Assembly: GCA_918797485.1 (NCBI GenBank)
Contig: CAKKNE010000002.1
Location: forward strand, 3,500,501-3,564,500
From: Pelagomonas calceolata
Lineage: Eukaryota; Sar; Pelagophyceae; Pelagomonadales; Pelagomonadaceae
Length of the DNA: 64,000 nucleotides
Direction: 5' to 3'
The position numbers and the translations under genes are program-made. Below the pieces are notes generated by a model. That model was not told where the DNA came from and ran no database searches. It was given only the letters and a program-made list of their open reading frames with translations. Shown piece after piece: positions 1 through 54,390 of this stretch (its first letter is position 1; every line of letters begins with the position of its first letter).

Positions 1-259
1 GCGGCCCGGGCGGCGGCCCCGGGCCGCCGGCGGGGCGGCCGCCGGGGGTCACCGTGTCCGAGGGGACGCCGTCTGTGACGGCCTCCTTTCCACTCACCAT
101 TCCCTAACTTTGCCTTGGCTTTCACCTAGTGGTGTTCAGGCTATTGAATTTGTCGATGCTACCGTACCTACGGTAGGTAGCGACGCTGGGCTCTTCAATT
201 ATATCTTGAATACCACAGCACCTGCTACCGTTACCTCCCCAAAACATTTAAAAAGACAC
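1..259. other. Intergenic, upstream of IFT139
   Basis: The first 60 bases are almost pure G and C, built of CCGGGC/GGCCGCC words like those in the other gaps of the window. The remainder is ordinary AT/GC-balanced DNA that holds the palindromic element at 159-180 and presumably the promoter and 5' leader of the IFT139 gene. No coding exon is supported here. Confidence 0.6.
159..180. promoter_or_regulatory. Palindromic TACCTACGGTA element before IFT139
   Basis: Overlapping copies of TACCGTA, TACCTACGGTA and GGTAGGTA form an inverted repeat that ends 79 bp before the proposed ATG at 260. The same word precedes six other genes of this window at a similar distance. Function is inferred from position only. 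Confidence 0.5.
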
Positions 260-3200
260 ATGTCTACGCACAGTACTACAGTGGCGCTATTATCACATTA
301 TGCGCGTCATGGGTTCTGGGGGTGCGTAAACTAAACACAAATGCATAAAATAGCTTCGTCTCAGACATGTGGAACACGAATCGAACAAGCTCCTCGCAAA
401 GGGATTATCCGACCTGAGTTCAATAAATTGGTGGCGCGCCATAGCCGTAGGATTTATGTCTATTAGCAATCCAAACGGGGAAGGTAGAGGACGCCTAGGG
501 GAAGCTTTGCGCGAACTTAGTTTCCTCAAGACGAGACAAGATCTTGAACTGTCTTCTGTCGTGGCGTTGCTTTTTTTCCATAGGCTTGCTGAAAACATAG
601 ACTACGAAGAAATTGAGATACTATCCAACTTGGCGGCGAGAGCGACGGAGCGTGCATCTGAGCCAAGCCTTTTGCTATGTGCTCAATTCCATTTGTATGC
701 TGGTATCCATGCAACAAGTAATGAACGCTTGTGTGAGCAATTCAAGGCATCCCGCAGCCTCATTAGAAAAGCCTAATTCAGCGTAAAAAGCTACGCATAT
801 CTCATGATAAGGTAGTGTTATTTCCAGGTAATCGAAGCTGATACAATTGCAGAGACCGAGACACAAAAACAGGCCCATATTCTCTGGGCATGGATCCAAC
901 TTTCTAGTCCAATGGATTCGTGGCATAATGATGGTCGAGACGTACTGCGGCACCTTGATGGTGCAACATGTGGTTCCGAGGAGTCTGTTTGGGACTTGGA
1001 GAGTTTGATGGCACATGCGTCTGCGCTATAAGAATACTATTTCTCCTGAGCGAATTATATGCGAATCTCCCTGTAGGCTCGTGCGTGTTACTACGAACTC
1101 ATGAAGCAGTACCTAAGCGCATTAGATTTCCTGAACCAGGCCGTTGCTCTTCAATCGTGGAGCCCGGCCCTTTTAGAAAAAGCGAAAGTGTTAGTTCATT
1201 TAGGTGACTGGGAGCAAGCGGCGGAGACGCTTCAGCGTGTTTTGCAACAAAACGAGGGGTCTATGGAGGGACTGCGTCTTAATGTTCTGATGCATATGGT
1301 GCAGCAAGCAGATGATCAAGTTACTCAGGAACTGCTTAGACGAATGATCAAGTCAATGGAAATATACGAGGGATTAAATGCCGACCTTTTCTACAAAACA
1401 GCCCGTACTCTGAGTCGTCTGGCTGGTCGAAAGCCCCAAATTATGAATCTCATTTCCGGGATTTGCAAGAAAGCAATTCAATTGAATCCATCGTCAACGT
1501 CAATCTACATAATGGAGCTCGCTTATGAGAAGGCAATGCTGTGTGACTATGATAGCGCAATGAAAAGCTATCGTGAAGCAGGGCGAACTGATGAGACTAA
1601 TATTGCAGCACTTTATGGGACTATCTACAGTCATATTATGCTGGGTGAGCTTAGCAATGCAGAGCAGCAGCTAGACTTTCTTGTGGCTATCTCGGAATCC
1701 ATAGAGCCATCAGCCCACTTGCCTTTTCTTAAGGCACTCCTTGCATGGCGGCATCTTGGCGACGCGGATAAGCATGCTAACCTGTTAGAGCAGGCCGAGA
1801 TACTTCATTTTAAATCCATGGCTAGTTACAAAGCATCGGACACATATGAGAAACTTTTCCTCTTAAATCCTGACTTTCTAATTCAATTGGCAAAGGAGTA
1901 TATACTACATTTGCAATTTGCCGTCAAGTTGATGCATGCGGGCAAGGCTAGGGCAGTTGGTCAAAGCAGGGCTGTGCGCCGTGGCATGGATATATTAGAG
2001 CACGTATCGCGCGAGGCTCCTGGACTAGTAGAGCCATATCTCATACTGGCCCATACTCAATTCACGCTAGGGGAATTTGAAGCAGCAACTCGAGTGGTGA
2101 ATATCGCACTAAATTTCGACACTCGGTCTGCTCCGGTCCATCTTCTTGCGGCGCAGCTAGCTCTGGCCAATGGGAACACTCGAGGGGCTGGTGGTGCTTT
2201 GGATCAGGCCACCGCCTGTGATTTTCATGTTCGTAAAGCCCCCGCATATGCGTTAGTAAAGGCTGAGCTGTATTTACTCGAAGAAGACCCCGAAGGAGCT
2301 TTAAAAATTTTACGCGATGCGATTCAGTTGCCCGGTATTAGGGACATCGTCACCACCCAAGGCGTTGTTCCGGTATCAGAACGGGTAGCTGTATTTGTTA
2401 ACCTGGCAAATGTCCTTTCTGGGCTGAATCGATTCGCCGAAGCTGCAAGTGTTCTTGCTGAGGCTCGGGTGCGGTTTGCAGGCACCTCGGATGAGGCTCG
2501 GGTTCTTATGTCCAGTAGTATGCTCGCAATAAAATGCAACGACTTTGATAAGGCTATATCCATACTAGATGGTGTACCTAAATCCTCACCCGTGTACGTT
2601 TGCGTTCAGCACTTTAAAGCGAATCTTTATCTCACAGAAAGGCATGACAAACACACTTATATGCAGTGTTTTCGAGATCTTGTTGATTTCAGTCCAAGCG
2701 CACATTCATACGAGCAGCTTGCTGCTGCCTTCATGCACATCCAGGCACTTGAAGCCGCAATAGAAGCTTATGAACGTGCATATAGCTTGAGTCCACATGA
2801 TGTGTCACTTGCGGTGAAGATAGGCCATGCTCTTGTTTCCACGCATGACTATCTCAAGGCAACTAACTACTATGTCACTGCCCTTCAGGCTCATGCAGAT
2901 GACATAAGTTTGAGACATGATCTTGCTACATTATTCATGAAGCTCAAGAAGCACGGAAATGCCACCAAGGTCCTCACTTACGTACTGCAGCCTGCGGGCT
3001 CCTTGCCAGAGACCTCCAAGATGAGCAACGAGGTTCAGTCCCTACTGCTACTAGCTGAGGTGCATGCGCGTGCTGCCAAAGGTGTCGCCATTGCTGATGT
3101 GCCTGATGCAAAGCATGCTGTAGTCAGCTTTCTCCTCAAGGCTCGCGACTTACAGCGCCTTATTTTAAAAAATGTAAATTCAATCATGGAGACACCTGAA

Positions 3201-4692
3201 GTCGTCAATGAACAGAAGAGAGTCATGGTCAAGATATGTTGCGAGCTTGCGAACTGTTACCTTGAAGAGGATAAGCCCGGAGACAAGGCCTTGGATGCAT
3301 ACCAAGATGCTCTTAAGGCAGATAACGTAAACTTATAGTCACACAGAATTTGCTATGCTCCCTTTTCCCTTAACAAATCGCAATGTAGGCCAACAATAAT
3401 TGTATGTTTCAGCTCGCACGACTTTGGGCCAAGCAAAACAAACAAGAAAAGAGTGAACAGCAGTGTGTGGCGATACTACGAATCAACCCCAAGCATGATG
3501 ACTCTGCCATGCTTCTCGCTGATCTTCTATCTCAAAATCAGAATCATGAGGCAGCGACAGATAGAATTTGTCAGATTCTGGAACGACACCCCAGTAACTA
3601 CCTTGCTCTTAGCAAATTAATTAGATTATTTCGCCGCGCCGGCAGACTTGATGACGTATCTCGATTCCTCGAAATTGCAGAACAGTCAGATTCTCGTGCA
3701 CTCTCGCACCCAGGTCTGTGCTTTTGTAAAGGACTTAATTGCCGTTATTCAAACAATCTAATTGCGGCCATTAAACACTTTAACCTTGCACGATGGGATA
3801 GTAAATGGGGAGGACTTGCTATTATGAATATGATTGAGCTATACCTCAACCCAGAGAATGAGCCTCAGAATCTACACCGTGTTCCAACTCACCGCCTTGG
3901 AAATCTTTGTAACTGCCGGACCCGTAGGTGGGATGAAAAAAGCGAAACTGAATTCAATTTGCAAACTGATATGACCGTTGGTCACCTTCTCAAAGAATTG
4001 GAAATTTTCGAGGTTCCCGTTGACGTTAATATTAAAGTTAAAGTTCTGAGAGCATATTCTTATCTCACAATTCGATCACAAGCAAAAATTGACCAAGCTA
4101 TTCAGATGTTCATTGAAATTTTAGAAAGACGGAAGGACTATCTTCCTGCACTGCTTGGCATATCTACCGCATTTTTGATTGATAAATCGACCACAAAGGC
4201 GCGCAACGCATTGAAGCGCATTGCCAAAATGCCCTACTCACATGAGCTTGCAGAAGAGTTTGAGCGAGGATACTTGCTACTGGCAGAGATATACATTCAA
4301 AAGTCTAAGTTTGACCTCAGTGAGGACCTATGCAATCGCTGCCTTAAGTATAACCTGAGTTGTAGTAAAGCATGGGAGACCATGGGCGTTATCCGAGAAA
4401 GGGAAGCGTCTTACAAGGATGCTGCTGACATGTACGAAAAGGTTTGGTCAGTGCTTAAATTCAATACTGAGCTTTGAGCAATAATTTAATCAAAGTCTGC
4501 CGGCTGTAGGCCTGGCGTCTTGAGCACAGAGCATCTGCAAGTACTGGGTTTAAGCTTGCATTCAATTACCTCAAGGCAAAGAGGTTTGTTGAGGCCATTG
4601 AAGTTTGCAACAAGGTGCTCAATTTGTACCCAGATTACCCCCAAATTCGGGCAGATATACTAGATAAAGCCATGATAGCACTCCGACCATAA
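260..4692 (+). CDS. TTC21B: IFT139 / TTC21B, retrograde intraflagellar transport TPR protein
   Basis: This is the IFT-A subunit IFT139, a solenoid of tetratricopeptide repeats needed for retrograde transport in cilia. Proposed exons are 260-321, 365-770, 828-1016, 1077-3326, 3389-4450 and 4525-4692, giving about 1,378 residues (human protein about 1,316). Family-typical stretches include YARHGFWG near the N-terminus, KQAHILWAW, the TGHL-like TPR array, LLADLL, ARNALKRIAKMPY and the C-terminal FKLAFNYLKAKRF. The last exon ends in ALRP like animal homologues. Introns 2 (771) and 3 (1017) must start with GC to keep frame. The last intron is either GT at 4451 to AG at 4524, or GC at 4453 to CAG at 4529. 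The ATG at 260 was chosen because it gives an N-terminus of the family's usual length. The gene reads left to right with TMEM17 next downstream. Identification is very secure; single exon edges are less so. Confidence 0.93.
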
Positions 4693-5433
4693 AAGAATCC
4701 TGGAAAATCACATGCTTTTGTTTGAGAGAAGCTTCAGGCATGATGAACTCCCTTCATTTGAAATTTAAGAATATTTAATCAACGTGCAGGCATTTAAGGC
4801 GCCTTTGGGTCGTAGAATCAATTCTCGTTCCTATGCTAGTAATTTGGTCTCTCGAGCGCCTCGGGTACCTATGGCGTGGATCGCATGTGCAAGCGCGGCC
4901 GTTTAGTCCAACAGTGGCAAAAGAAGCCTGAGTGCCCGCTGCGGGCCGGAGGACGCAGCGCGGTCGTTTTTTCTTTCAAGTTGCAGTCGCCCCCGGGCCA
5001 GCTCTCCTCGGGCTGGCGGGCAAGTGACCATTTTCTTTCTAACTCTGTTGGAAAATGCCGTGGGTAGCGTACTGACGGGCCTCTCTGTCAGCTATGGGCT
5101 GGGGCGAACGATTCTACCCGTCCACTGGCAAGCCTGAGTTTCAAGTTGCACCGTCACGGTGCCTCAATGGGCCTTTTGGTGGGAATTTGGTAAGTGTTTC
5201 GGCCCGAATCTGAGTGTCTGACGAAGTGTTCGGACGAAATTTTAAGTGCTTAATCTGGTTCTAGTGCCAGTTGGTTCTAGTAGGTACTAAAAGGGGTGCT
5301 AAAAGAGTTCAAACCAGAATAGCCCGGTGTATAGGGCTGCGTTCGTTCGGCCTAAGGTACGTCCGAGTCGTCGGTCACGGTGGCTATCTTGTGGCGGGGG
5401 CGGGCTCAGGGGCGCTATAGGGGCAGTCGCGCG

Positions 5434-5874
5434 CTAGGGTGCAGTTTACGCACGGCGTTCTTTACGTGAGAAGCGGTCCAGCGTCATTTACGCCGTAATT
5501 TACGCGTAATTTACGCGTGCATTTATTTATAAAACCCGCACACACGCGGGCAGAGCGCCTAACAAGGCCTTGGTAGCCACGCAGCTCAATAGCAGCACGA
5601 GCACGGCGCATAAGCTTACACCTAGAGTGCACACCTTGCTCGCAACAGCATGCAACTAGCAATTGGCTCGGCTCTGACAACGTTTGGGGCAGCCACACTC
5701 TGCGAGGTGCTGTTCGCGAGCTAGAGTCTTAAAGGGCCGCTAGCGCCGGCTTCGGGAAGAGCCCTGGAAGGACTTTTGGATACCTCCTTTTTTACGCCGT
5801 TTTTTACGTGGGATCTCCTGTAGCGGTGCTTTACGTGTAATTTACGCGTGTTTTCCACGTAAACTGCACCCTAG
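5434..5874. mobile_element. Non-autonomous hAT-like element (MITE), 441 bp
   Basis: The ends are inverted copies of CTAGGGTGCAGTTTACG (5434-5450 and, reversed, 5858-5874). The element is flanked by a perfect 8-bp direct repeat GTCGCGCG (5426-5433 and 5875-5882), the target-site duplication length of the hAT superfamily. TTTACG/CGTAAA words are repeated just inside both ends (5452-5520 and 5790-5860), like the subterminal transposase-binding repeats of hAT elements. The interior has no convincing transposase, so it would move only with help from a full-length relative elsewhere. The perfect target duplication suggests a fairly young insertion. Confidence 0.85.
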
Positions 5875-6321
5875 GTCGCGCGTTGCGGGTACTGCGCGCG
5901 CAAGTGTTTTTAGCTAAATTCAAGTGTTCAAGTTTGGGCGAGAGTGTTTGGGATGTTTTGGTAAGTGTCTGGAGGCATCTCGGAGCCTGAGGCCCCGGCC
6001 CGGGGCCGGGGGAGGAGCAAACATTTGCTAAGTGTTTCTCGTCCACCCTGACTCGGAATGCCAGTGGGCCTATTCAAGTTCACTGGCATTCAAGTCACTC
6101 AGGCTCAGGCTCCGAGTCAGTGCCAGTGACGGTTGCCATCTTGAAGTCACGCCGGTTCAACTTGAAGTTGCCCGGGCCGCGGCCAGCCTGAGGCTTGCCA
6201 GGACGCCTACGGTCAACCCGCATCGAGTGGCGTATAATATAGCTGTTGTGGCTTAGGTTTGAAGTGTGCCTGTGATCATGTATACGTATGCCAGCGGCGG
6301 CTGACGTAGGCATATTATTAT

Positions 6322-6344
6322 CGGTAGGTACCGTAGGTACGGTA
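6322..6344. promoter_or_regulatory. Palindromic TACCGTAGGTA element before TMEM17
   Basis: CGGTAGGTACCGTAGGTACG-type repeat, ending 47 bp before the upstream candidate ATG (6392) and 71 bp before the second (6416). Same word family as at 159-180. Function inferred from recurring position. Confidence 0.5.
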
Positions 6345-6391
6345 TCAGAACTTGTAAAATCGTTTTGAAGCAATTATTTCCGTGATTACCG

Positions 6392-7021: not shown

Positions 7022-7333
7022 GTACTTTTGCTTATCTTAAGGCAATAGGCCTAGTATACCAAGTCAGCGAGTCGGGAATCACCCGTTTCATTGACATGGT
7101 CTCAGATCGCAGACGTGCCACGCGAGGCCGGGGAACGTTAGAGGGTCTGGTACGGCGCGCTGATCCGATGACAAGGCTGAGGCGCGACTGAGGCGTCGCC
7201 ACTGCCCGTCCCCTGAGAAAAAGGTGTGCAAGGGACCCACGATATGGGCTCCCGCAAATTAACACTGTTGATAAGTACCAAGGCTTCAAAATGATTACGT
7301 CCTGCTGTTATTCGTCCGTACTAAGCATTTTGG

Positions 7334-7549: not shown

Positions 7550-7710
7550 TCAATTTTGTAGTGGCTTCCGGGGTTTACTCCCCCCGCCACCATAGTCAAT
7601 TCCAGTCGGGGTTTGGGAGGGGTCACTGACGGCAGTCCTGGCCACTGGCAGACTCCAGGCCGGGGGGGCATCTAGCAGTCCTTCGAGTTCAAGTTGCCGT
7701 TTCCGGGTAG

Positions 7711-7720
7711 TACCTACGGT
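7711..7720. promoter_or_regulatory. TACCTACGGT word in intergenic DNA
   Basis: A single copy of the word found before ciliary genes, here not next to a confirmed gene. It may belong to the minus-strand ORF starting at 7549 or be a stray copy. Confidence 0.2.
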
Positions 7721-9080
7721 AACTAGACTGCAGGAGTGCAAGAAATATGAAGAAATATATATATACCCCCCGGGCCTATCTCCTAATAGGAGACTCGGAC
7801 TCCTATCCCACTCCCCCGGGCCTCACTTTCACTCTCCTATACTAGGCTATAGTCCCGCCGCCTTGACCCGTAATAAAGATTACCCATTCATTCACGCATA
7901 GTGTTAATATTACACGGGGAGTCAACTACTAGTACAGCCAAACCCACTCACACCGTTGCAGGGTGACAGCAGAGTGCCGTCCCCTATATTTACCCCGCAA
8001 CTAGCTAGTAGTCATCCCGAGAGTCCGCTCCTAGCCTGAGAGACTCGGAGAGCCCACCGGCCCGCCCCGGCCGGCCGCCGTTACGTTTCTGGGGCCGCCC
8101 GGGCCTTACTTGAGCGAGCTTGCCTTAGGTGGCAACCGCTCGCCAAGCTGCCTACTCAGGCTCACCAAAGTTGAGCCTCCGGGTTCCACTGCCAGTGACA
8201 GTGAGAGCGCTAAGTTTGAGCGAGCTCTCCGCAGCGACCGAATATGACCGCGCAAGAGGTGCTGGGCAGTCCGAGTCCGAGTCACGGTCACGGTCGCCTC
8301 CTGCCACTGGCAGTGCAGTCACTGGCACGGTGCGCCTGCGAGCGTGCGTCTTAAGCTGCCAGTGCTGCCCCCCGCGAGGCCCTGTTCGGCGCGCGGCCGG
8401 CGCCGCGAATAGATCTCCAGATCCTACTCTCCAGACTCGATTCCAGCCCTCGGCGAGCCAGTACGCCTGTGCTCATGTACAAGTGGTACCGCCTGTGCTC
8501 TAAGAGCCGGTACGTAGGTACAAGCTGGTACTTGGATTAGACACAGTAGGGGGGGGGGACTATGAAACGGCAGAGTACACGTACATACGCAGCTAGCCTG
8601 CCGCAGTACATAAAGCAGATCAAAGGTACGAGCGGCGTAAACGGCCGGCCTGTACAGCTCGATTGCGAGCATTTCGCTACTTGGATCGTCTTCTAACTCC
8701 TCCATCGTGCCGAGTTACAGCCCGGCGAAGGTTGCGAGAGCATAGTCGCGCCTCTGCGAAGCCATAGTCGCGCGCACCGGGGCAGCGGTATTGCGGCTGC
8801 CCAAAGTACCAGCGCGGGCGTCCTACGACGCCTCCACCCACCTGGTATCGACGCCAACACGACGGTCTGACGTCAACACGCGGACACTCTCGGACAGCCG
8901 TCGTAGAGCGGCCCCACATAGACTTATGGTGCAGTGGTAAGCTCCGTGCGACCGCTCCGACAATGCATACGGGTCACTAGCTCGATGTCCGCGTGCTTTT
9001 CGGGTAGGTCTTGACGCTTGTTACTGCTCTGGCGGCAGCCCGCGGATAAGGCCTCGACAGCCTCGACGGAGCACTAAATC

Positions 9081-9670: not shown

Positions 9671-9727
9671 GGTACCACGGTACCGTAGGTACCGTAGGTA
9701 CCTACCGTAGGTACGGTACCGTGGTAC
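9671..9727. promoter_or_regulatory. 57-bp GGTACC/CCGTAGG palindrome before gene A
   Basis: Nested copies of TACCGTAGGTA. The outer arms GTACCACGGTACCGTA (9672-9687) and its exact reverse complement (9712-9727) could form a 16-bp stem. The element ends 53 bp before the ATG at 9781, the same spacing as before the C2/FKBP gene and epsilon-tubulin. Confidence 0.55.
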
Positions 9728-9780: not shown

Positions 9781-12700
9781 ATGATGACACAGAGGCAATG
9801 CGAGCCTGTATCTGCGGTCACAACGCAACCGGCGAATACACCTCCATCACTGGGTTTACTTACCGAAGTAGAGCATCGTCAATTAAATTGTGTCCCAGCG
9901 TCAGGCGTGGCGAAATCGAGGACGGAACGACTGCAAACACAGCTAAGTGCTCTTGGTCGCCAAGAATTGTGTTTATCCCCCACATCCATGCTCTCAATTT
10001 CAAACTATGAACACCATGTAGTCACAGAAGCTAGTCTCAAGTATCCTTTCTTGTACGACTCTGTGAAACGTACAGGAAAAGGTCATGCACAGCAGAACAT
10101 ACCGGATAGCCGTAGGCTGCAATCTACGGAGCTATCGGCATTGGCGGCTGAAATGAATCTAGCAACAAAACCAAGACTTTTGAGCATTGAGTCCTCATTT
10201 GGGACTTCACCAAGCAAGTCTGACTCACGTGTCTCGTGGTCGTTTGCATTTGCTAGTGTAGTGTGCTTACGTAGGTTGAAATCAGGTCCGAGGTACAGAC
10301 ATGTACTACGACGCGGTCATGTTAGGATTTCGAAGCCGCTTTTTATCGAGAAAATGGGAAGAGCCAAGGCGAGTCCATCCGTGACCATTCAATGTGCTGC
10401 TCGACGGTGGCTTGCTTGCATTGAGATGCACAACCAAGCAAAGCTACGAACATTGCAGGCCAGGCGCGAACACTGTTCACTGATTCAGCTCATAAGAGTC
10501 AGGCAGATGGCAGTTGATACTGCACAGAAAACTGCTCGCAACACCATGTCAAGATCGTCAGCGCAGCAACATTCTGAGTACACCAATGCCTTGACTATTT
10601 TACAGTATTACGCTCGTGGTCGTGTTGGAAATCTCACCCTGACCAAGTTGCGTCAAGGAAGCTTGATATTGATGTCGACAGTTCTCTTGATACAGTGTCA
10701 TTGGCGAAGAAAGCAGAGTTACAAAAGCGCTGGCATAGCACGTGTGACAGCTCTTTCGATGAAACTTACACAATTTGTCCAGGGGCGATCTCTTGGGCAG
10801 CGGAAAAACTTCCAGACTCATGGTGCTGTCGTTTCACTTCAAAAGTATTGGCGAAAGCGCGCACAAATGCGCCAGCTACGGTTCAAGCATGATTATCTTC
10901 GTGAGCTCAGTGCCAATGTTATCCGCGGTTGTATTTTGCGTTTGATCTCTCGCACACAGCGTCGCCATCGCCGTTTGGCAGACAGGACCGTCCGTTAGCT
11001 AGAGTCTTAAAGTCGTCCTTTTATAGAAAATGACATTATAGAAAATGACATCATTGCTTCGCGCAGGTAACTCATATAACAGAATTGATCGCGATTAATG
11101 TCCAAACGCTATATCGTCGGCGGGCCGCAATGCTAGTCGTAAAGCAGATGCACCTCGATGCTCGTGTTGATGTTATGGCACGGCACAAGTATCGTGTTCA
11201 ACGACTAGCGTCTTTACGAATTTTTATAGCAGATAGCAATTCAGTAAGTACATATCCCAATCAATGGAGACGCTCTGTGGTTCGAGCATACAGACAATTT
11301 CTCGTGGCGTCTGCAAGCGCTGGCGTCCCCTGTAGGATAGCTGGAAGATCCACCAGATTATTGGCTGTTGTCAAAGTTGGGGCTATTTACCGAGCCTACT
11401 CCTGTGCCTCACGTGTACAGTCGAGGTTGCTGCAACAGCGACTTCGTGACAGCGCTGCAGACGCAAAAACACAGAGAGGCTATGTTGTTGAACTACAGCA
11501 GTGTGCGCGCGCGTGGTTGGCTCAATATCATGCTAGAAGAAAATACTTGAATCATTCTAGCATCACAATTCAGAGGTTTGCTCGCGGTAAACTAGGGCGG
11601 CGACGAATTTATCATATTCGTAAAAAGCTCGCTGCTGTAATTTCCATTCAGGCAACTGCACGCAAAGCTGCAGCTACTAAAACATATCATCCCCAACTTC
11701 GATGGCTGCAGCAGCTCAAAGTCCCCACTTCAATCCTCCAGAGTCAAGTTCGTCGACTTAAATCTATTGTATTGGCTACGAAATTGCGCGAAGCTGTAGT
11801 CTTTGATAACGAAAAGATCCTTAGAGCACACAAAAACCTCTGTTACTGTCGCCAAATTGTGCGTACTGAGCTTTGCATTGAATCATATAGAGGCCGCGCC
11901 AAGTACCGAGGAGAGTTTCAAGCTATTTTTGCGAAGTACTGTCGTAAAATATCGACGTCAAAACAAAGTTTTTCAACTCATTCATGCATCAAATTACTAG
12001 GTGTGCACCCAGCTGTCGAGTTAACCTCGAGTAAGCGGCAAATGCAGCCACGCGCGATCTCCCAAGATATCACGGTGCGAGGCAGAACGCTTACGGAAGA
12101 CAACAGTCAGTTGGTACAGCAAGCCCATTGCTATGGTGCAAAGATGTCCGCGTCAGAATTTACTCGGCTATTCAAGGACACTTCTGGGGCGGTTGTTGGT
12201 TTCAGTCGGCCTTCAGCCAAAGAAAGGTCATACAATGGAATAAAAACCAGCGATCTTGAAGTAATTTTTGCTCGTGAAAAACGCCATGGTGAGAAGTGCA
12301 TTACATTTGATATCTTCTTGGCACTCAGCATCGTATGAAATTCGCGCGTATTAGTGCTAATGTGTGTTATGCCCAGGTTTGCCTGGAAGAAGTCTGCACA
12401 CAGCTAAATCTCAGTGGAGAAAGTACCATGGGGCGTCTAGCTGATGGTCGCTTTGAAAAGGTGCTTTCTATGCTCATTCATGTATGGTTACAGGAAAGTT
12501 GGGCACTTGATATAAGATATGCTCTCGAAGCACGTGTGGATAGAAAGCTTGAAACAAGCGTAACATCCTTACAGACGTTCGCTCGTTCGGTTGCTGCTCG
12601 TTATTATGTGATCGCCAAAAAGAAAACGCACTACAATGGTGTGCATTCACGTGCCACAGCAGGTGCCGCTATTTTTATCCAAACGCGGCTCGCACGCGGT

Positions 12701-14629
12701 CCTGCTGCTCGTGCACGTACGGTTGTGATGGCCCTGCGTGCCTTTAAAAAATACGCAGTGGATGATAATGAGATGCATCAGTACTCTATTCCATGCAACG
12801 AACTGAGCCATGGCTCCACCTTATGTTACTGGGCTTTTGTCGGTCTAGAGAGTGAAAATTCTCGTAGCAGGTCCATTCGAAAGGCGACACATACCCGAGT
12901 CGCATGGGCGAAACCTAAGCTTCTGCGTAATGCTGACGTACAAAAGATCTTGCGCAGACCTTCTCTTCGAACTGCGTTCATTGTTGATTGTGCCTTTTGT
13001 GGGATCAGGGCTGCAGAAAAAGTATGCCTTGACTCATGCGCTGACCCGTTTTTTACGCGTAGCATATAATCAAATTGTGAGAGAAGGCTATTGCGCCTTT
13101 GTAGGTACTGTAATGAATGTTGGGATGCAGTCCATCGCCGCGGGAAACGGCAGCAGCATGCCTTTCGTGCCATTGTAATATGCGTGGACTGTGGTGGTAG
13201 GCAACCTGCCAGTCGCATCTGTAGTACCTGCTCGGCATCTGCGGGTTGCATTGTCTCTCTCTGTGACGTACATTAATCTGTGCCGTGATTTGTCTTTTGG
13301 ATCACTCACAGCATATGAGCCAGGTATGTTTTCATAGTCGCCATGCTTTGTGCTTGCAGCAAAATCACTCACAAGACAATGCATTGAGCGATCAGAGACT
13401 GAGATCTGATGCACTCAGGCCACACCGTTGGACACCTCTTGTTCAGCCCTGCACATTCTGTGGTAATTTTGCAGCTAGGTGGCTGTGTCCGCCATGCAAG
13501 GAGTCTTATTGTGCTGACTGCTACTCACAACTTCACGGGCGTGGTGCAAGTCTGGCACACGCATGTAATCGCCTGGGCTACTACACGGCAGAGGATCAGC
13601 TCCGTGACGAACATTTCTTCCGAGCAAGCGCACGGCGCTCCATCGAACGCCATAAGAAAGAACTGGCTCGTAATTCTGAGCCCATATTGCGCAAGCAAGC
13701 AGCACTAGCGATCCAAAGATCATATCGCGCCGCGAGTGGACGTGCCTTGGGTCGCAGCTGGCTTCGATCGGCAAGGGCAAAGCAATCTTACCAGCAACGG
13801 CAAACTCACTATTCGAAAAGCTTGTGCATCCGTCGGATCCTTGGGCTTACTAGTCATACATTATTGCCACATGATGCTAAGGAGCAGATTGCAATGGAAA
13901 GGACATTATTCTGGAAGTGCCAGCCAGCGAAACATAGTAACCATACTCATAATTCATAAGATGCAATTCAGGCGCGCACGCGCTCGATACTTTATCCTTC
14001 AAAATTGCACAGATGCCTCCCTGAATGGCGATTTGCCCACTGATCCAAAGAGGATCCAGGGACAGGGCTTTGGAATTGGCAGTACTGGCGAACTTGCAGA
14101 TCAGGCATCTTTTGGCGGGGTTCGGCTACCAGGTCGCGCTTTCCCAGTTGAAGGTACCAAGCACGTCAATGTATCACATGACCTACGCAAGTTGTTGCGG
14201 CCAGGTGATCGAATCCGCATCGGAAGTAGCCTTTGTCGCCTCCACAAAACTCATCCAGGAGCAGTCGATAGAAATAGCCTACAGCTACGGTTCTGTTGGG
14301 TTAAGCCGGACATAGGTGCTACAGGCTTGTGTCTATATCGTTTACCACCTCAGGGACAAGCAGGTAAAATGTGGACAATGATTGGGCGCATCATGTATGA
14401 GAATCAGCTCACACAGATCCTGATCAAAGGATATTGCGGCTTTCATTTCAAAGTTTGCGAGTATCAACGAGTGTGGGCAAAGAGGCTGCATCATAGGCTC
14501 CCCAAAGTCGCTAGTCAACTCCAAAAGTGGTCCGCTCAGCATGAGGGAATTCAGCAGCGGGTCCAGTGGTGGACAATGGACTGGCAACAAGTTCTCGAGT
14601 CTCGTCGTAGGAAAGCAGACAGGTCGTAA
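9781..14629 (+). CDS. Large IQ-motif / p25-alpha / WW-like / B-box protein (paralogue A)
   Basis: Proposed exons are 9781-10989, 11067-12332, 12377-13056, 13105-13267, 13312 to about 13930, and about 13961-14629, near 1,530 residues. The N-terminal half carries many IQ motifs for calmodulin-type light chains, for example IQRFARGKLGRRR near 11570. A p25-alpha (TPPP) domain ends exon 2: FTRLFKDTSGAV, then IKTSDLEVIFAREK and ITFDIFLALSIV. More IQ motifs and a WW-like stretch (THTRVAWAKPKLL) follow. Next come B-box-like zinc fingers: CAFCGIRAAEKVC, CNECWDAVHRRGKRQQH, CVDCGG, CTFCGNFAARWLCPPC, then SYCADCYSQLHGRG with a distal H. The C-terminus has DRIRIGSS and LYRLP, shared with paralogue B. Intron 3 (13057) appears to begin GC. 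The join near 13930-13961 is unresolved. The upstream palindrome and the p25-alpha domain, a tubulin-binding fold, suggest a cytoskeletal or axonemal role. No named family is known to me. Confidence 0.82.
11022..11051. repeat. Tandem 15-mer inside intron 1 of gene A
   Basis: TTATAGAAAATGACA occurs twice in a row inside the 77-nt intron 10990-11066. This is a small recent duplication that accounts for most of the extra length of this intron. Confidence 0.7.
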
Positions 14630-15098: not shown

Positions 15099-15114
15099 CT
15101 ACCTACGGTACTAG
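15099..15114. promoter_or_regulatory. TACCTACGGTA element before the armadillo gene
   Basis: CTACCTACGGTACTAG ends 69 bp before the ATG at 15184. Same word as before other ciliary-type genes. Confidence 0.5.
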
Positions 15115-28297: not shown

Positions 28298-28318
28298 TAC
28301 CGTAGTATACTCGGTATA
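28298..28318. promoter_or_regulatory. Degenerate TACCGTAG element before CFAP44
   Basis: TACCGTAGTATAC followed by TCGGTATA, an imperfect version of the ciliary-gene element, ending 64 bp before the CFAP44 ATG at 28383. Confidence 0.3.
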
Positions 28319-28382
28319 CATATAGCCTATAATAATACCGTATAGGCCCTTATATATCCTGGCAATATTGTATAACGCCACA

Positions 28383-34104: not shown

Positions 34105-34220
34105 CCGGACCGGGTAATTTTTTGGAGTACATTCTGCCTACCTTCCCTTCCTTACTAGTAGCTCCAATTAGCCTCAGATTATTAGGATAAATCAGTTTGC
34201 GACGCTTAAGACTCCGTGAA
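34105..34220. repeat. Diverged repeat shared with 40393-40495
   Basis: TTTTTTGGAGTACATTCTGC, then a C/T-rich part, then GCGACGCTTAAGACTCCGTG, parallels the order and spacing of a block downstream of the C2/FKBP gene. Both copies lie a few hundred bases after a stop codon on the plus strand. Confidence 0.45.
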
Positions 34221-37302: not shown

Positions 37303-37735
37303 TTCACACACGGGCCATATTGATACGACCCCGGGGTGGTGCTCAGGCTGTTTGAATTTCCAGAGACTGGGGCTCAGACGTCACAGTTCCCACCTGAAGC
37401 CGGGGCTGACGCCTAAGTTGAGCAATTGGGGCGAGTGCATGGGGTGTTACGGAGGTTATTGCGGTCGTGCCCGGCGGCCCGGGGCCTGGGCCGCTCGGGC
37501 GGCAGCCGAGCACTTCAAGTGGCCCGGGGTAGCAATCATATGAAGGGGTAGCAATATAAAGATAGTAATTGTTGGCGTCGCTTTCTTTCTGGTAGCGACC
37601 AAGAAACTGGCTGAATAAATACCATCAAACAGCATGAGTACGGTTCTGTAAGTGCCGTAGGTACCTACGGTACCGTAGGTATCCTCCAGTTCACATACGG
37701 CATGAGTTACAAGCTAAAGGCTATGTAACTCGAGG
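37303..37735. other. Intergenic before the C2/FKBP gene
   Basis: Contains a GC-rich block with CCCGGG words (37440-37530) and then the palindromic element 37655-37681. No other feature. Confidence 0.55.
37655..37681. promoter_or_regulatory. CCGTAGGTACCTACGG palindrome before the C2/FKBP gene
   Basis: A perfect 16-bp palindrome CCGTAGGTACCTACGG followed by TACCGTAGGTA, ending 54 bp before the ATG at 37736. Confidence 0.55.
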
Positions 37736-40495: not shown

Positions 40496-40955
40496 GCCAG
40501 TGGGTCATGCGCCGTGGGCTCCTAGGGAACCCGGGGTCCGACCCTGCTTAAATACCCCCCCCCCTTGCAACGTGCTGGTTTTTATTAATCTATCTTGCCC
40601 CGGGCCACTCCGAGTCACCTCCGCCGAGTCACCTCCGGTTTATTTCCATGTCCGGCTCCGCTTAAGCCGGAGTGGGCCCGAGTCTTCACGTCGATCCGGA
40701 GCATGCTTCCCCTCATCCCTCGACTCGGGCTAACCTCGGGCGGGTCCGGTATGGTCCGGCCGCAGCCTCAGGCTGAGGTGCCCGCCGCCGGCCGCGGCGG
40801 GGCGGCCCACTCGGGGGTTGAGCCACGGTCCGAGACAACTAGACGTAGTCCGAGTCATCTTCACTGTAACCTGCGTCCGAGTGAGTCTGCTGGAAGTAGA
40901 TTTGCGCCGATTTCAAGTTGTCCTAAGCTGACATGTTTTTAATGTACCGTATCAA

Positions 40956-40968
40956 TACCTACGGTACC
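40956..40968. promoter_or_regulatory. TACCTACGGTACC element before paralogue B
   Basis: A single clean copy of the ciliary-type palindrome, ending 40 bp before the ATG at 41009. A half copy, GTACCGTAT, lies about 10 bp upstream. Confidence 0.5.
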
Positions 40969-41008: not shown

Positions 41009-44000
41009 ATGTTAGGGGCCACAACCTCGCACGCCATTGATTTCGTCGTCGCCATTTCTAATACAGATTTGTTGTATCAGGCATTAGAGCGTGTGACTGA
41101 TTTCCCAGCTTCGAATGTGACTGAAAACAACAAAAACATTCTCTTACTCAGGCCGCGAATTTCTTACTCTCCCATAAACTGCAAAACTCCCAGTCCAACA
41201 CCGAGGCATGCGTTTCCACAGTCCCTATTTGCGACAAGACCGCTCGCGTTCAATTATCCTGTTGGAGATTGCATGGTCACGCATCTATCAAAGCTTATTG
41301 ATGTCTCTCGTTTTAGACTTGCACGTCAGTGGCAGGGACCATCAACCCGCCATTTTTGCGGTGGAGATCGAGATATTATTGTAGGAAATGCACTTCGCGA
41401 GGTGACTCTGGAAGGGATAAAACGCAACTTGCCGATGAAATTCCTCGTGCAAAACAAAAATCACGCTCTTGCGCATGCCAAAGCAGCCACTCTGCTCTGC
41501 AGGGTTGCAAATATGAGAGCAGCAAATAGAATATCAAGTACATGGGACCGTTGGATAAAGTTGGTATATGTTTCTAGAGCCAAATCCAAGACCCATGCTG
41601 CAAATGAAATCAAAACCTTTGTCCTTTTAGTGTTAAGAGGAGTTGTAATGGATACAAGGTTTTCATTGGTGCCACATATTAATAGAAAACTTGAAATAAG
41701 AGTCAAAAACGCTCCAAGACAACTTGTGTGGCATTATGCTAGAATATTTAGAGCCTTTCGGCGTTATAATATGCTGAAAGAGGTGGCAGCTGACCACTTG
41801 CGAGAACATGCCACAAAGGGAATCCAGGGACTAGTGCGAAGACGTCGAGATGGTGGCAATATGAAACCACATCACTTTCACATTGGGGCTTTTGCTGCTG
41901 GCTCCATCCAGCGTTTACAACGAGGCAACATTTCGCGAGTGCGTGCAAGACAGTCTAAGCATCGTCATAATCAGCGGCTCGTTCTTTCTCGCTATTGCAG
42001 CACAAACGCTTCAACAAACTACAATTTTGAGCAGCAAGGTGCGGCGCATAAAATTCAGTGCTGGTTTTTGCTGCAACCCCACCGCAATCGCATAGTTTAT
42101 GCTAGTAGTTTGCAAATGACAGTTTCTAGAATCCAGAGTGCATTCAGACAGAGGCGGCTGAGAATCAAAGAAAATGCAAAAGTGTGGTTTGCTGCAATAA
42201 AAATTACAACTTTTTTGAGACAGCATAATGTACGCATGAGAACAAACTATAAGCTCATAACCACAAACATGAAGGCAACGACGCATTGCAACTGCAGACT
42301 TCAGCAGAAGCATAATATTATTCGCCGCGACTTGCTGCGAGCTATCCACAAAGAGGATAGATCGCACAAGGCGATAGAACGCCAAATCATTCATATACAG
42401 TCATTGCAGCGAGGGCACCTTGCAAGGAAGCTCCCTGGTGCGTCTCGGATAGAGCGCGTGTGATGCAGAGTCACCAATTTTTCATCGGTAAGATAAGTCA
42501 CTGTGCAGGTAATTCTCACCCAGAAATTTCTCAAACGCTGGATCCAGCATCAACTTGGGAAAAGGGCACACCATTGTCTGTTGTCCTTGGCATCCTGGAC
42601 AGCATTGATCGCTATTCTTGATTTCAAACTGAGAATAAAATACGCCACGGTCATTGTGGCGTGCTGGCGTAGGTACCGCAGATTTACGCTACACTTCTCA
42701 AAATGCAAGTTGATGAATGAAATCGCGTGTGTATTTGCCGACAGTATCAAGCGCAATCTATACTGTCAAAATCATAAAGTAGCAGAAAGACAGCACTATA
42801 GAGTAGCAGAAGCACATCTAGCAGGTCGCTCAATGTTCGAGCGTACGCGCGAAACGAAGATTCAGCATCAGATTTTGGTGCAATCTAATGTTTGCAATCG
42901 TGATCATAACGCTGAACTTCAGCGAATATTTGTGACATACTGTAGCTATGGTCAAAAGGAAAATACGAGTCTACTAGGAATTGGGAGCTTCTTACGGCTA
43001 CTAAAAGACTCATCAAACGTAATGTGGCCATCAAACGCCGCTGGCCTGCGACCCTGTGATGTTGAGCTCATGTCTATGAAGAATCGCAATCACAGTAACG
43101 CCGGAGCTGTTGATAAGCACTTGCGCTATAGCGAGTTTCTGCAGACGATTCATAGCCTCGCAAGCATTTTCTTCAATTCTTTACTTTTTTGCAATGATAG
43201 GCTCACCGAGCCTGATGCCAAGACCTGTGCCTTCCTACAACAGCATGTATTCCAATCAAAAGTGGCAAAGTATCACACTGATAGTCTGCGCTCGCTGTCC
43301 TGTGTGGGTCGTGTGGACTCGCAGTTACATGTCTTCTCACAGAGAATTATTTCATTGTGGCGAATACACCATTCACGCGTGTTGTTTGGCTTGCAAAAGA
43401 GCATACAGCTGAGTCACTCAGAAAAAGGACAGCAAATATCCTCTGCAGTTTGTATTCAGCGAGTCTGGCGTAGTTTTTCTAGCCGAGAAGTAACTTATAG
43501 TTACGCACGTGGTGTATATGACTTATTTGTGGACTTTGAGTCAGGTTGTGAGTTTTGGTTTAATCGATGCACTCGAGCCTCCCTCTGGACAAAGCCTCAA
43601 ATACTTGTAAATAAGGACGTCAGGAAGCCCATTTTTATGCCCAGTAAAGGCTCGATATTTGAGGTCTCATGTTCTGAGTGTTCTGCTAGCTCCGTGTCAA
43701 CGTACTGCATCGAGTGCAGGAAGCTATATTGCAACCAGTGTAGCGTGTTGCACAGCTGCAATCACAATCTTGTAAGCATTGAAATGTGTGTATACTGTCA
43801 CTTTCAAATAAGTGCCCTTCCGCGTTTGAAAAAAATGACCAGCAGCAACAAATGTGTACATTAAGTAGGCACAAAGCGTTGTGAAAAATGCAATGATCAC
43901 TACTGTGACACTTGTTTTGAAGATCAACATTCCATGGGCTCACTCCAATTTCACAGCTACGAGGAAATGGTGCCTTGGACTTACGATGTACTCTCCCTCA

Positions 44001-45753
44001 AACGTGTATCATAGGTGCCGCACTGTGACAACTGCAGGCAGCATGCTGCTCGCAAGACGGGTGGTTGTTTGCAAAAGAAACAATTTTGCTTACAATGCGC
44101 AAATAAAGTCCCAAAGGGAGAATGGGAGCGGCTTGGTGATGTCGCCTACGTGCCCAAAATGACCACGGAGCATCAACAACACAGGAAAAGAAAAATCACT
44201 GAACAACCATTGCGCGACCTGAGAGTCAATATGAAGGGAAATCCCCTGGGCATAGTACAAATACAGCGCATTTGGCGCGGGTCTAGAGGCCGCAGAAGCT
44301 CAGCAGTACATGCCTTTGAACGAAAGCTATGGCTAACACAGCGAGCTGCAGACAATCACCGGCGCAGGAAACGGCGCTATCAAATTGCCTGTTTTTTTGG
44401 CAGGGGAAACCTTCTGGAGAGTGACACACCACGTGAGACGGTGATTAAAAAGGTACCATATTGGTCGCGAGTCACTGTGGAGGATATTGTTCACGACCGG
44501 TTAATATCCCATGAAGAAAGAAAATAATATAAAATAGCAAACTATTGATACCCTAGGTGGACTGAATTTGCAGGCTATGTCAAAGAGCAAGATTCTTTTG
44601 TAAAAAAACACGGCTCGTTGGGTGCAAGGTCATATATAGACCTTAAACTGACCTGGTTGCATTTGAAAGTAAAAAGCTGGGTTGCGAAAATAAAAGCTGC
44701 AAGGGCAAAGCGCGGATTTTACACCACACAAGTTGCATTTCGCAGGTCAAGTCAGTGTTCGACTGCCAATCTGTTCTCATGTCTTAAGGCTTATGTTCAG
44801 GTCTCGATCAGCAGACACCGACAGGAAACTGCAGGAAAAGCTGAGGCTGCGCATGCGCGCCAGTCGCCAAGATCTTCAGCAACGCCTGAGGCTTATTGAA
44901 ATAATCGATCGTGAGCTGAAGGTAGTTCTTAGCCGAAACGCACAGCTGCTAGGACCTCGCAGAATGGAGGTAAGGGTCCGGGAGGCGGTCGTGTGGGGGA
45001 TGGAATTAGAACATTTCGCTCTTTCAGCTCAGAAAAATAGTCAATATGTAGAGCATGCTCGTTTTGATGCTTTGGCAGTCAGCGCTTCTGACAGGATTCG
45101 AATTGGAAGTTCACCGATTAAATATTGTTCTTCAAGAGAGTTAGGATTACTGAACAAACTGATGCTTAAAGTCAGCCCCTCCGTCGCACCTGCACCTAAC
45201 TTTTGCTTGGGATCAGTAGACCCAGTAAATCACCAGCGTAGTGTATCAGTCGACATGTACCGTCTCGACACAGCTACGGATAATGGAGCTACACAATATA
45301 TACATAGGCAAGAAATTCGTACAACTCGCATCCTTCTAATTTGACCAAGGCCAGGCTTCATCGGATATGGACCCATGAGGACAATGAATACTTGAAAGTG
45401 TACAAGTTGCCCAGAGGACTGTTCTTGAACTCGTTTTTCTCACGTCTTTGTACTCATCTGCGAAGCATCTATTATTCCTCTGCGGTTATCCTCTGACTAA
45501 ATGCGCCATAGGTGAATTTGCTTCTGGGAACTTTCTCACTCAGCTTGTGTTAAAATGGAATATCAGGATGCTGGCTTTTTATCGAGATCAAATCACGCAT
45601 ATATCCACCCGTATGGACTCTGAGTCTGCATCAAAAGCGACACTGGAGACGCACGCCGCAAAACTACAAAAGAAGGTCATCAAACAAGAACATGATCTCT
45701 ATCAGCCGTTAAAAAATCAGAAAGCCTTTTGGCATGGGCAAGCTCGGCAATGA
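41009..45753 (+). CDS. Large IQ-motif / p25-alpha / WW-like / B-box protein (paralogue B)
   Basis: Proposed exons are 41009-42457, 42509-43811, 43869-43969, 44015-44499, 44557-44745, 44801 to about 45300, about 45355-45440, and about 45512-45753, near 1,430 residues. IQ motifs recur (IQRLQRGNISRVRAR, IQSLQRGHLARKL, IQRVWRSFSSRE, IQRIWRGSRGRRS). The p25-alpha-like segment reads LQRIFVTYCSYGQKENTSLL, SFLRLLKDSSNVM, CDVELMSMKNR and RYSEFLQTIHSLA. A WW-like stretch (CEFWFNRCTRASLWTKP) is followed by B-box-like zinc pairs: CSECSASSVSTYCIEC, YCNQCSVLHSCNH, CVYC ... CEKCNDHYCDTCFEDQH, CDNC ... CLQC. The end shares DRIRIGSS and YKLP with paralogue A. The two genes therefore have the same domain order but are strongly diverged. 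Exon borders after 45300 are uncertain. The TACCTACGG element upstream suggests co-regulation with the cilium set. Confidence 0.8.
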
Positions 45754-46186: not shown

Positions 46187-46967
46187 GGGGCCGGACGCCA
46201 CCATAGGGATTCGCTCCATCGTTAGCCTGTACCCGCGGATTGGGTCGGGAGGACTCGTAGGGCCCTCTTAAGGGCCGGCTGAGGTCAGGGGGGTGTACGG
46301 GGATCGGGACTAGGGCGCAGCGGCGCGCTGAAAACGGCAAAAACCCGTGAATCTCGATTAAAAGCGATTTGGTTTTGGCCTCGTGCGCAGCCTAAACGCA
46401 CCCATAGGCAGCCCCAAGCTATTTCTGACCGCTCAAGGGGTCGGACGAGGCGGTGCGCCAAGAAAAAGCGCGGCAGCACAACATTTCGCGATGCGCCAAA
46501 TCGCTCTCCCACCAGATGATGTGCGATACGCGATGTGGGCACGCCACTGCACAAAAAACGGTGCGGACAGTACGGTGGGTATGCCCCAAGTCCCGCGGAC
46601 AACTTCGAGCGCTCGAAAAGCTGGAAATCATTGCACCGCGGCGGCCGCGTCGAGGTCAACGCGGGACGAATAGAGAGCTTCGAGGGCGCTCCTGCGAGTT
46701 ACCACGGGCCCGGGGACCGGCGCGGGGTTACAGTCGATGCGGAAGACGACGATGCGGACGACGACGACGTCGATTTGGAACTTTGAGTCTCCGCCGTCCG
46801 GCCCGCGGCCTGCCCGCGGCCGGCGCACCCCAAACCCCCCTACCGTTTGCAGCCCCTATTTTGCGTGAATATTAGTCATTACCTTAAGTATGTTCGTAGC
46901 AAGTTTGCGGGTTTAAGCTATGAAAGGGGAAGAGCTACGGTAATTTCTTACTTTGGCGTCCGGCCCC
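46187..46967. mobile_element. Terminal-inverted-repeat element with 11-bp target duplication, 781 bp
   Basis: GGGGCCGGACGCCA (46187-46200) is repeated as its reverse complement at 46954-46967. The 11-mer TTGCCAGAGCA flanks both sides as a direct repeat (46175-46185 and 46968-46978), with one extra C at the left junction. A duplication of 9-11 bp is seen in Mutator-like elements, but the family is not certain. The interior is GC-rich (CGACGACGACG near 46760) with several overlapping ORFs, none a recognisable transposase. Confidence 0.75.
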
Positions 46968-47684: not shown

Positions 47685-47695
47685 TACCTCGGTAC
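47685..47695. promoter_or_regulatory. Degenerate TACCTCGGTAC element before the large kinesin
   Basis: TACCTCGGTAC differs from TACCTACGGTAC by one missing base and ends 52 bp before the ATG at 47748, the same distance as before gene A, the C2/FKBP gene and epsilon-tubulin. Confidence 0.35.
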
Positions 47696-47747
47696 TGCTG
47701 CGGTAAGATTACAAAGGATACGCTCGTACCGATCCTCGTCATTTCAA

Positions 47748-50700
47748 ATGGAGCATGTGCGGGTTATCGCGCGAATTCGGCCGGAGCCGTCGTCCGTACG
47801 CGGTTGTGGCTGCCTCAGGGTAACGAGCGATACTTGCGTCGAACTTTGCCAGCCGGACGGAGTCAGGGCTCAATCGCACAGCAAGCGCGGCCGGCCTAGG
47901 ACGAGGCTCTTCACGTTGGATCGAGTGCTCGGGCCGCAGTCGGTGCAGGCGGATGTATATGAACACGTAAAGCCGTAGCTTGACTGCGTATTTATTCAAT
48001 CACTCAGCTGTTCTTATTTTCCTTCATATAGGCTAGTTCATTCAGCAGCACATGGGTATAACGCCACTGTGTTTGCGTACGGGCACACGGGATCAGGGAA
48101 GACACACACCATGACAGGCGATAACGTCCAGCCCGGTGTCACGCCGCGGGCAGTGCGAGAACTTTTTGCAGCGATTGAGCATGCAACTCGTACAAAGGAC
48201 GCAGTTTTCCTCGTGCACGTGAGTTACGTCGAGCTGTACAACAACCAATTTCGCAATCTTCTCGATGATGTAGGGAACCATTGCCATGCGTCTAGCAGCA
48301 CCAAGATTGAGATCCGCGAGTCGCGCGACACGGGCGTCTTTCTTACGGGCCCATCCAACCTCAAGGTCGCCGTGACTTCAGAGCAGGAAGTCCAGGAGCT
48401 TATTTCCTTGGGAGACAAAGCTCGGGCATATGCGCTTACGCGATGCAATGATCATTCCAGTCGGAGCCATTGCATCCTGACTTTGCATGTTCAGTCGCAG
48501 AGGGCTAGTATTGCTCTGCAGGACCCACAAAATGCAGCTTTGACGTCCGTACATGTTGGTAAGTTGAATTTGGTAGATCTTGCCGGATCAGAGCGTGTGT
48601 CGCTATCTGGTGCCCAAGGCGAGACACTCGTCGAGGCGCAGAACATAAACCTCTCGCTGGCGCTCCTTGGTGACGTACTTGCTGCGCTCTCACGCAACTC
48701 ACTGCGCGGAGAACAAGGGACGCAATTCCCTCGGTCTGGTGGCTCTCGCGAGCCAGTCCCCTATCGCAATTCAAAGCTGACTTATCTTCTGAAGGATTCG
48801 CTCGGTGGTAACTCAAAGACACTTATGATCACGACTCTTCGAAGCTCAGAGACTTATTACCGTCAGTCGCTCGTGTCGTTAATGTACGCATCACGGGCAC
48901 GGACCATACAGAATTCGAGCACGGTGAACTTGGACCGTGGATCGGGCCCGCGGACAACGGAGTCACTGCAGGTTGTCTCAGAACAACTTAATCACCTCCA
49001 CACGCGTTTGCGTGTTCGCGAACGTGAGTTTGATGCCCTCTGTGCAACATCAGCATCCTCAACTTCAGAGAATATGCGTCTTAAAAGTGAACTTCAGCGC
49101 CTCGAGGCCCTTAACGAGGCAGAGCGCTGTGAGCTTGAGAACAAGCTAAATACCGTCATTCATGGCCACTCGAGTGAGCTTCGGAACCGCACAGAGCAGT
49201 TCGGCAGGCTGCAGGCTCGCCTGCAGGAACGGATCCTGACATACCGCAGAACCTGCGCAGAACAGGAAGAAGAGATCAATCGCCTTCGTGATGAGAGAGT
49301 GCTCCTCGAACAGCAAGTGTCGACTGTTGGTGCGACCCGAATGGAAGTTATAGAGATGCAGACCGTGATGGACGGTTGGCAGGCGCAGGCAATAGCCTTG
49401 CAACGCGAGCTTGAACACTACAAGCATTTCTTTTTAGACTCTCCGGTACTGCAGACGGATCAAAAGAAAATGGGAGGACGCTTCGGACGGAACCGCAACA
49501 TCTCCCACGACCACCATCGCAAAACCATAGCATCCATGCCTGGGACTGTCGTGCCTGACGACCTGATGAGAGTCACTTGTCGAGCCATCGTGCTTGAATC
49601 CGCGCTTGGATTTGCCTGTACTGAGCTTGACAATGTTTTGAGTGAGTCAAATGGCACTGCGAATGTACTCATCAGAGAGCTGGTCAAGGCACTTACTACG
49701 AGATGGGGCACGGCGCAGGCAACGACAAAACTTGGTTTATGGGCAAAGGATGTTCTAGATACGGCACAAAGATGCGCCGCCTTTGAGGCTCGAGATCGGG
49801 AGTACGTGTTTTCTGAAGTCGCTGCATCCCTGGTGCCTAGTACGCGATCAAACACCTTAAATGTACTACGGGCACGACTCATTGAGATGGAGCGTCGTTT
49901 AGGCGAATCCCTTCAACTTTCTGAAGAGTTAGTCTCGCGACATGCTTATTCACGAACAGAACGTGCAATGCTAGATAACAAAGCGGACTCCAGCCTCGCG
50001 CGCATTGTCGCGGAATCTGCACTTCTCAACAAGATCTCGGTCCAAAAGATTGCAGATGAAACACTCACGGTCGCACGGGTGGGCGCCAGGGCTGAAATAT
50101 TTGCTCTTTGGACTGCCAGGGAATTTTTGGTCGCTGCCGCCCTCAAGCGACGCGACACACACGAAGCAACCACTGTGCGAGCTCTAAAGAAAAAGTTTGT
50201 TGTAGAGTCCTTCCAAGTACGGACGAGATCAGCCGTCGAGCGCGCTCGGCGAAATTTCGTGTGTAAATTGCGGACAGTGTACAAGATTCGTGATCCGCAG
50301 GAGCTTGAAAAGGCAAACGCAAACGCTGTTCACACCATCCAGCGCAACAGAGACTCGTTAGTTGACGTAATATGCCTTGAACGCGCTGGGAAGATGCGGC
50401 TAATCTGTGCAATGTCCGCAGCAACAGCCGCGGCAGTCGCTGCGCTGCGAGTTGAATTCGAGTCCACTGCTGCATCAGGTGCTGCAAAGCTTTTTCGGCT
50501 CGAGTCGGATCTTGCGGCAATAGTCGAAGAATTTTTCGCATTGCAGAAGAAAAAATGCCAGCAATTCAACTCGCTTACTCGATCACTGGACATTCTTGTG
50601 TTCTGCCACTTGGCGGAAATTCGGAAAGCTGCTTGTGAAGCGGCATGTGCTATTCATAAGGAGCGCACCTGCTCATGCGATAAATTGGCTAATGTTCAGC

Positions 50701-53468: not shown

Positions 53469-54332
53469 TTACTAAGGACTCGACGTCCAGGAGCCTAACG
53501 ATATGAGCGGACCGAGACTGTATATTCTGTGACCTATAATAATAGCCTGAGGCCGGAACCAGTCCTGTCGAGTTTAGAGCACGCCTCCCAAGCCGCTGAC
53601 ACGTCTAGGTGCCTTTACGACGAAAATTTGGATTGAGCATAATTTCTCGGAGCGGGGGAAGCTCGTGGTCTGTACTCGATGATGATATAGTTGTAGCACT
53701 GGCATTGTTTGCACTGTCACCTTTTTCGAGTTGTAGAGGTCAATTCAAGTTAAGCCCTATTCGCTGAGCTCACAGAACAATTTACTGACCGGGGAAAAAT
53801 GTTGTAAAAAATAAAATTTTTTTACATTTTGGATGGCTTTTGGCCGTTTTCTCGGCGAGAGGCAGCCCGTTTGCTGCCGCGTTTTTTGCAATGCGTTGCC
53901 CGGCTGCCCGCGCCCACGACGTAGACTAAGTGTTTCTCACGAGGATGCCCGCACCGAGCACGGGCCCAAGTACAATGGCAGCCCCCGAACAGTTGTAACA
54001 TTTTCCCGTGACTCGGACAGGGCAAGATGATTATTTGCACGCATTTCACGCACTGGCAGTGACTCCATCAGCCGAGTGTTGCTCGAGGACCCGTTGCGGT
54101 CACGGTGACTCCGAGTCGGCGGACTCCACTGGCACCCGATTTGGTTCCCCGGGCCCGGCGGGCGCATTAAAGGTGTCATTTAGTAATTTGACTCGGGCTA
54201 ATCGCGGCACCATGGCCATCGTCTCGCGGACCATTTGGCCTAGGGCGGGGGCTCGGATGCCCGGGTCCGAAGCGGCTACTTCTAGTACAAATGGATGCGG
54301 AAGTACTACCAAATTGTGAATCATTTATACAA
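53469..54332. other. Intergenic between the large kinesin and epsilon-tubulin
   Basis: No gene. Contains an AT-rich stretch (53795-53830), CACTGGCA words at 53699, 54051 and 54128, and a CCCGGGCCCGG block at 54147. Confidence 0.55.
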
Positions 54333-54390
54333 TACCGTAGTACCGTACCGTAGGTAGGTACCGTAGGTACCTACGGTACCTACGGTACGG
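54333..54390. promoter_or_regulatory. 58-bp array of TACCGTAGGTA palindromes before epsilon-tubulin
   Basis: Nested copies, with arms CCGTACCGTAGGTA (54343-54356) and the exact reverse complement (54377-54390). The array ends 54 bp before the ATG at 54445. It is the longest array of the element together with that at 9671-9727. Confidence 0.55.

Follow-up and report, generated by a model that had tools for sequence, protein, structure and literature searches.

The known cilium promoter site closest to the word described here is the RFX X-box of animals and choanoflagellates, and RFX controls cilium genes in a choanoflagellate (available part of PMC10530576). According to the same part of that paper, neither RFX nor FoxJ1 is present in Chlamydomonas, Naegleria or ciliates, and the ciliome promoters of the chytrid Spizellomyces yielded no enriched motif. 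The available parts of PMC10530576 and PMC11864758 leave open how cilium genes are switched on jointly in organisms other than animals and choanoflagellates, and the latter describes the history of their regulation as an unsolved question. In Chlamydomonas the flagellar genes, and in mouse the ciliary genes, are described as being under the control of XAP5 (PMC11864758, available part). For Phytophthora infestans, the promoter motif M94, TACCGGTA, is given among predicted stage-specific motifs (PMC3597505, available part). The words 'motif' and 'promoter' are absent from the main text of an oomycete flagellar gene paper (PMC3471859).

The word TACCTACGGTA was analysed in a 64-kb window, the whole stretch of DNA studied. 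It resembles the X-box, which is read by a dimer, in being a short-spacer inverted repeat in promoters of putative cilium genes (PMC10530576, available part). It differs in that the outer GT/AC bases do not fit and in that the consensus GTNRCC N0-3 RGYAAC, as given there, had no match on either strand of 15 promoters of 150 bp. The standard X-box was rejected on this count, in agreement with the first-pass annotation, which had called the word not a standard X-box. No RFX protein was found among the named genes of the window. The case would be like that of XAP5 in placing cilium genes of a unicellular eukaryote under a factor other than RFX or FoxJ1, but the mouse Xap5/Xap5l motif, CCCCGCCC/GGGCGGGG, is unlike this word (PMC11864758, available part). 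M94 is a palindrome built from identical TACC/GGTA half-sites; it has no spacer, the spacerless form TACC-N0-GGTA has no copy in the window, and the available part of PMC3597505 links it to no flagellar genes. No cilium promoter word with these letters was found among the literature matches listed, judged by title and abstract start, with subscription papers mostly outside the scope of the search.

Genes and start codons of the window

The window is eukaryotic DNA of 49.8% GC; several of its genes are long and consist of a single exon, and others have introns. Gene models were derived from a strict gene-finder run, ORF lists and homology; the genic spans used in counts have approximate ends and include introns. 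Introns were read by eye (3327-3412, 47966-48034, 38265-38347, 61450-61484 and others), and their 5' splice sites varied (GTAAAC, GTAGCT, GTGTAT, GTGATC, GTAAGT). 15 start codons were set by homology or in-frame ATGs, read from the translations, and all were verified as ATG; that of the C2/FKBP gene is uncertain, and 23096 is a second possible start for CK2 beta.

Genes were named by Pfam, PDB and tblastn comparisons. IFT139/TTC21 was named from Pfam TTC21 domains, TMEM17 from Pfam PF09799 and CFAP44 from a PDB match (E 1.9e-33), and PKA, CK2 beta, G beta, kinesin-1, SPT5 and the armadillo and C2+FKBP genes were likewise named by such comparisons. The best PDB matches of the large kinesin were kinesin-3 motors, and the AK7-like gene gave a weak match only (E 8.2e-6). 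The tubulin gene was named from Pfam and had earlier been assigned to epsilon-tubulin. Its N-terminus presumably fits that family; the best 60 of 170 PDB matches are ordinary tubulin chains, nearly all beta, so that the epsilon identity is not proved. For the armadillo gene, the match to designed armadillo proteins (E 2.9e-23) was much stronger than that to ODAD2/ARMC4 (E about 2e-7), and the gene therefore cannot be called ciliary. Genes A (9781-14629) and B (41009-45341), with blastp values of 1.2e-6 and 0.002 between parts, look like paralogues and thus may not count as independent carriers; their weak IQ, WW-like and B-box-like matches all fell under the Pfam cut-offs. Protein sequence comparisons gave no cilium identity for A, B, the armadillo gene or the C2/FKBP gene.

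No relatives of the IFT139, tubulin and CFAP44 proteins were found in IMG/VR, none of tubulin in GTDB and none of the tubulin locus in plasmids. A 20-mer from an array was not found in IMG/VR or GTDB contigs, nor a second 20-mer in IMG/VR. The collections searched were viral, prokaryotic or plasmid, so little weight attaches to the absence of relatives from them. In the window, no matches came from Rfam (gathering threshold) or from ARAGORN (bacterial code).

Sequence of the word and position of its copies

14 exact copies of TACCTACGGTA, seven on the plus and seven on the minus strand, are grouped into eight clusters. Allowing up to two mismatches, 35 copies were counted, while 100 shuffles gave 6.8 on average. 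When inverted TACC/GGTA pairs were counted in the window at spacers of 0-15, TACC-N3-GGTA occurred 15 times against 0.27 expected, which bears out the earlier description of the word as an inverted repeat and gives it a short-spacer architecture. The other spacers gave 0 to 7 copies, many of them within TACCTACGGTA clusters, and the seven pairs of the runner-up, spacer 12, are located inside such clusters. The spacer was TAC or GTA in all TACC-N3-GGTA pairs but one, at 27638 (14/15). Copies overlap in 9-bp steps at 9681/9690, 37662/37671 and 54359/54368/54377; other overlaps are at 13.

An exact copy had been claimed before seven genes and was found before each. The element before IFT139 (160-179; start codon 260) reads TACCGTACCTACGGTAGGTA and holds one exact copy, which ends 84 bp from the ATG. 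That before TMEM17 (6323-6344; start codon 6392) holds one exact copy on the minus strand, at 52 bp. Gene A (start codon 9781) is preceded by three exact copies in a 56-bp near-perfect palindrome (9672-9727), the last at 67 bp, and the armadillo gene (start codon 15184) by a single exact copy (15100-15111) at 73 bp. Two exact copies and a mismatched one form the array before the C2/FKBP gene (37653-37681; start codon 37736, uncertain), with a distance of 54 bp; a half-element and one exact copy stand before gene B (40944-40968; start codon 41009), with a distance of 42 bp; and four exact copies make up the array before the tubulin gene (54333-54391; start codon 54445), the last at 57 bp. The gap of 54 bp given earlier for C2/FKBP agrees with this measurement. 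That of 53 bp for gene A is now 62-67 bp, the in-frame ATG being 9781, and some others were a few bases smaller because the end point used for them was that of the longer repeat.

The first-pass list, whose seven promoter copies were all recovered, omits an eighth exact copy at 7711. This copy lies in an orphan element (7706-7721) with no gene found adjoining, and no coding score above 8 was obtained on either strand between 6514 and 10122. An isolated half-element, CTACGGTA (46935-46942), lies about 800 bp before the large kinesin, at no known start. Both orphans possibly belong to unannotated short or noncoding genes.

The 130 bp preceding each of the 15 starts together form a zone that covers 10% of the noncoding DNA; seven of the eight clusters fall inside it (binomial P 7.6e-7). 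Six control over-represented words with 14-23 noncoding clusters each placed 0, 2, 1, 0, 1 and 0 clusters in the same zone. Over-representation is thus common in the DNA of the window and start-proximity is not. The evidence for a promoter location of the word is strong, and the earlier proposal of a positioned promoter element is well supported.

The core shared by the carriers is TACGGTA. Noncoding DNA holds 23 copies of it (shuffle mean 1.77) and genic DNA none, and a coding role was rejected on this ground. Of these copies, 21 are found in the 150 bp preceding a start, at eight of the 15 genes; the remaining two, at 7715 and 46936, are at no known start. When all 5-, 6- and 7-mers were ranked between nine promoters (the carriers named earlier, exact and degenerate) and the six others, TACCGTA and ACCGTAG came out on top, in 8/9 against 0/6; this grouping follows the word, so the ranking is not independent.

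The intergenic DNA also holds other recurrent 8-mers. The noncoding counts were 33 for CACTGGCA, 26 for CCCGGGCC, 25 for AACTTGAA, 22 for GACTCGGA, 17 for AGCCTGAG and 15 for ACCGTGAC (shuffles 0.6-1.4). These six are rare in genes and without concentration at starts, and are spread across intergenic DNA, for example at 5123-6200, 7640-8360, 22150-22770 and 34200-35200. Between the tubulin gene and kinesin-1 there are a 96-nt direct repeat, 80% identical (56453-56548 and 57327-57422), and a perfect 22-nt tandem duplication (57735-57778).

Distribution between cilium and housekeeping genes

The named cilium set comprised IFT139, TMEM17, tubulin, CFAP44 and the AK7-like gene, and the housekeeping set PKA, CK2 beta, G beta, kinesin-1 and SPT5. 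The core was present before 4/5 named cilium genes (not AK7-like) and 0/5 housekeeping genes (Fisher p=0.024; post hoc, one window), and the exact word before 3/5 and 0/5 (p=0.083; post hoc, one window). With the gene lists of the first-pass annotation, the counts were 8/10 against 0/5 for the core (p 0.007) and 7/10 against 0/5 for the exact word (p 0.019), both again post hoc and from one window. With few genes, one window and post hoc tests, the cilium specificity of the word is suggestive only.

The five housekeeping promoters had been reported to lack the word, and the AK7-like gene to lack a clear copy; both statements hold, with no exact copy and no TACGGTA in the 150 bp upstream of any of these genes. 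Degenerate copies had been proposed before CFAP44 and the large kinesin. CFAP44 (start codon 28383) has two cores in its promoter, in the half-elements TACCGTA at 28298 and 28336: the first (28298-28316) reads TACCGTAG with a further GGTA, and the second spans 28336-28342. Taken as whole 11-mers, however, its best site has 3 mismatches, no better than in PKA, kinesin-1 and the AK7-like gene (chance 0.17 per promoter). The copy before the large kinesin (start codon 47748) did not stand: the core is absent from the 150 bp upstream, where only TACC-TC-GGTA is found, that is TACCTCGGTA with a spacer of 2 (47685-47694), and the gene was not counted as a carrier.

Interpretation

The preferred reading, to which we assign a probability of roughly 0.6, is that a dimeric transcription factor recognises the word as a promoter-proximal site and thereby controls a set of genes enriched in cilium genes. 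In such a site, an inverted pair of TACC/GGTA half-sites would enclose a constant TAC (or GTA) spacer; in places the unit recurs in 9-bp steps. Binding would take place about 40-100 bp ahead of the start codon, and the bound dimer may co-activate genes for intraflagellar transport, the transition zone, the axoneme and the basal body, among others; arrays may increase occupancy.

How far the set is ciliary bears on an alternative that we regard as unlikely, namely that the word is a genuine promoter element serving a broader programme, tied to a life stage or to the cell cycle (formation of zoospores or gametes, centriole cycle), in which cilium genes are only one part. Half of the eight core carriers (A, B, armadillo, C2/FKBP) are without shown cilium identity and the core is missing from the AK7-like gene, which also tells against the ciliary regulon proposed earlier. 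That proposal keeps the four confidently named non-housekeeping carriers, all of which are cilium or basal-body genes (IFT139, TMEM17, CFAP44 and tubulin, taken as epsilon), and these, with 0/5 housekeeping genes as carriers, speak against the broader programme. A derived RFX X-box, in which winged-helix proteins of that family would recognise a changed inverted repeat, seems improbable. The architecture of inverted repeat and 3-bp spacer is shared, and a single position in each half-site separates GGTACC-TAC-GGTACC from GTNRCC-N3-RGYAAC (consensus of PMC10530576, available part); on the other hand, the single X-box match of the window, at 59279, is inside kinesin-1 and outside all 15 promoters on both strands, and the choanoflagellate monomer GTTGYCA is in 0/15.

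We give very little credit to an RNA element, an inverted repeat in the 5' leader acting as a hairpin on translation or mRNA stability. It would account for the proximity to the ATG, and in six of the eight clusters the folding beats that of most shuffled sequences (z -1.8 to -4.1), but inverted repeats fold by construction, and neither the armadillo copy (z -0.3) nor the orphan (z 0.2) shows this excess. The spacer, moreover, is asymmetric and equally frequent in its two orientations (7:7), which a factor reading RNA should tell apart. Least credible is a dispersed repeat or low-complexity word without regulatory meaning, lying near starts by chance. Recurrent words do abound in the intergenic DNA (CACTGGCA 33 against 0.7 expected, five others 15-26 against 0.6-1.4), yet the six control words have 0-2 of 14-23 clusters at starts compared with 7/8 for this word, and the carriers are without shared flanks. 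When the 15 upstream regions were compared by blastn with half-sites masked, the only similarity beyond self-matches was 13 bp between PKA and SPT5. No two carrier promoters match under these conditions, so a mobile element or copied promoter does not explain them.

The dimer-site reading can tentatively be carried further, to a cilium or flagellate-stage regulon with a cis-code unrelated to RFX, in which a dimeric factor would read TACC-TAC-GGTA by the transcription start and arrays would tune strength; we consider this possible, at somewhat less than even odds. The data hint at a shared on-switch of cilium genes unlike the one known from animals. If this is true, the word would assign genes A and B and the armadillo and C2/FKBP genes to the cilium. 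A sharply defined word before intraflagellar-transport, transition-zone, axonemal and tubulin genes would be a handle: one could count it across a genome, mutate it in a reporter construct or use it to fish for the factor. If it is true and the organism lies outside the animal-choanoflagellate group, the control of cilium genes would have been wired independently there.
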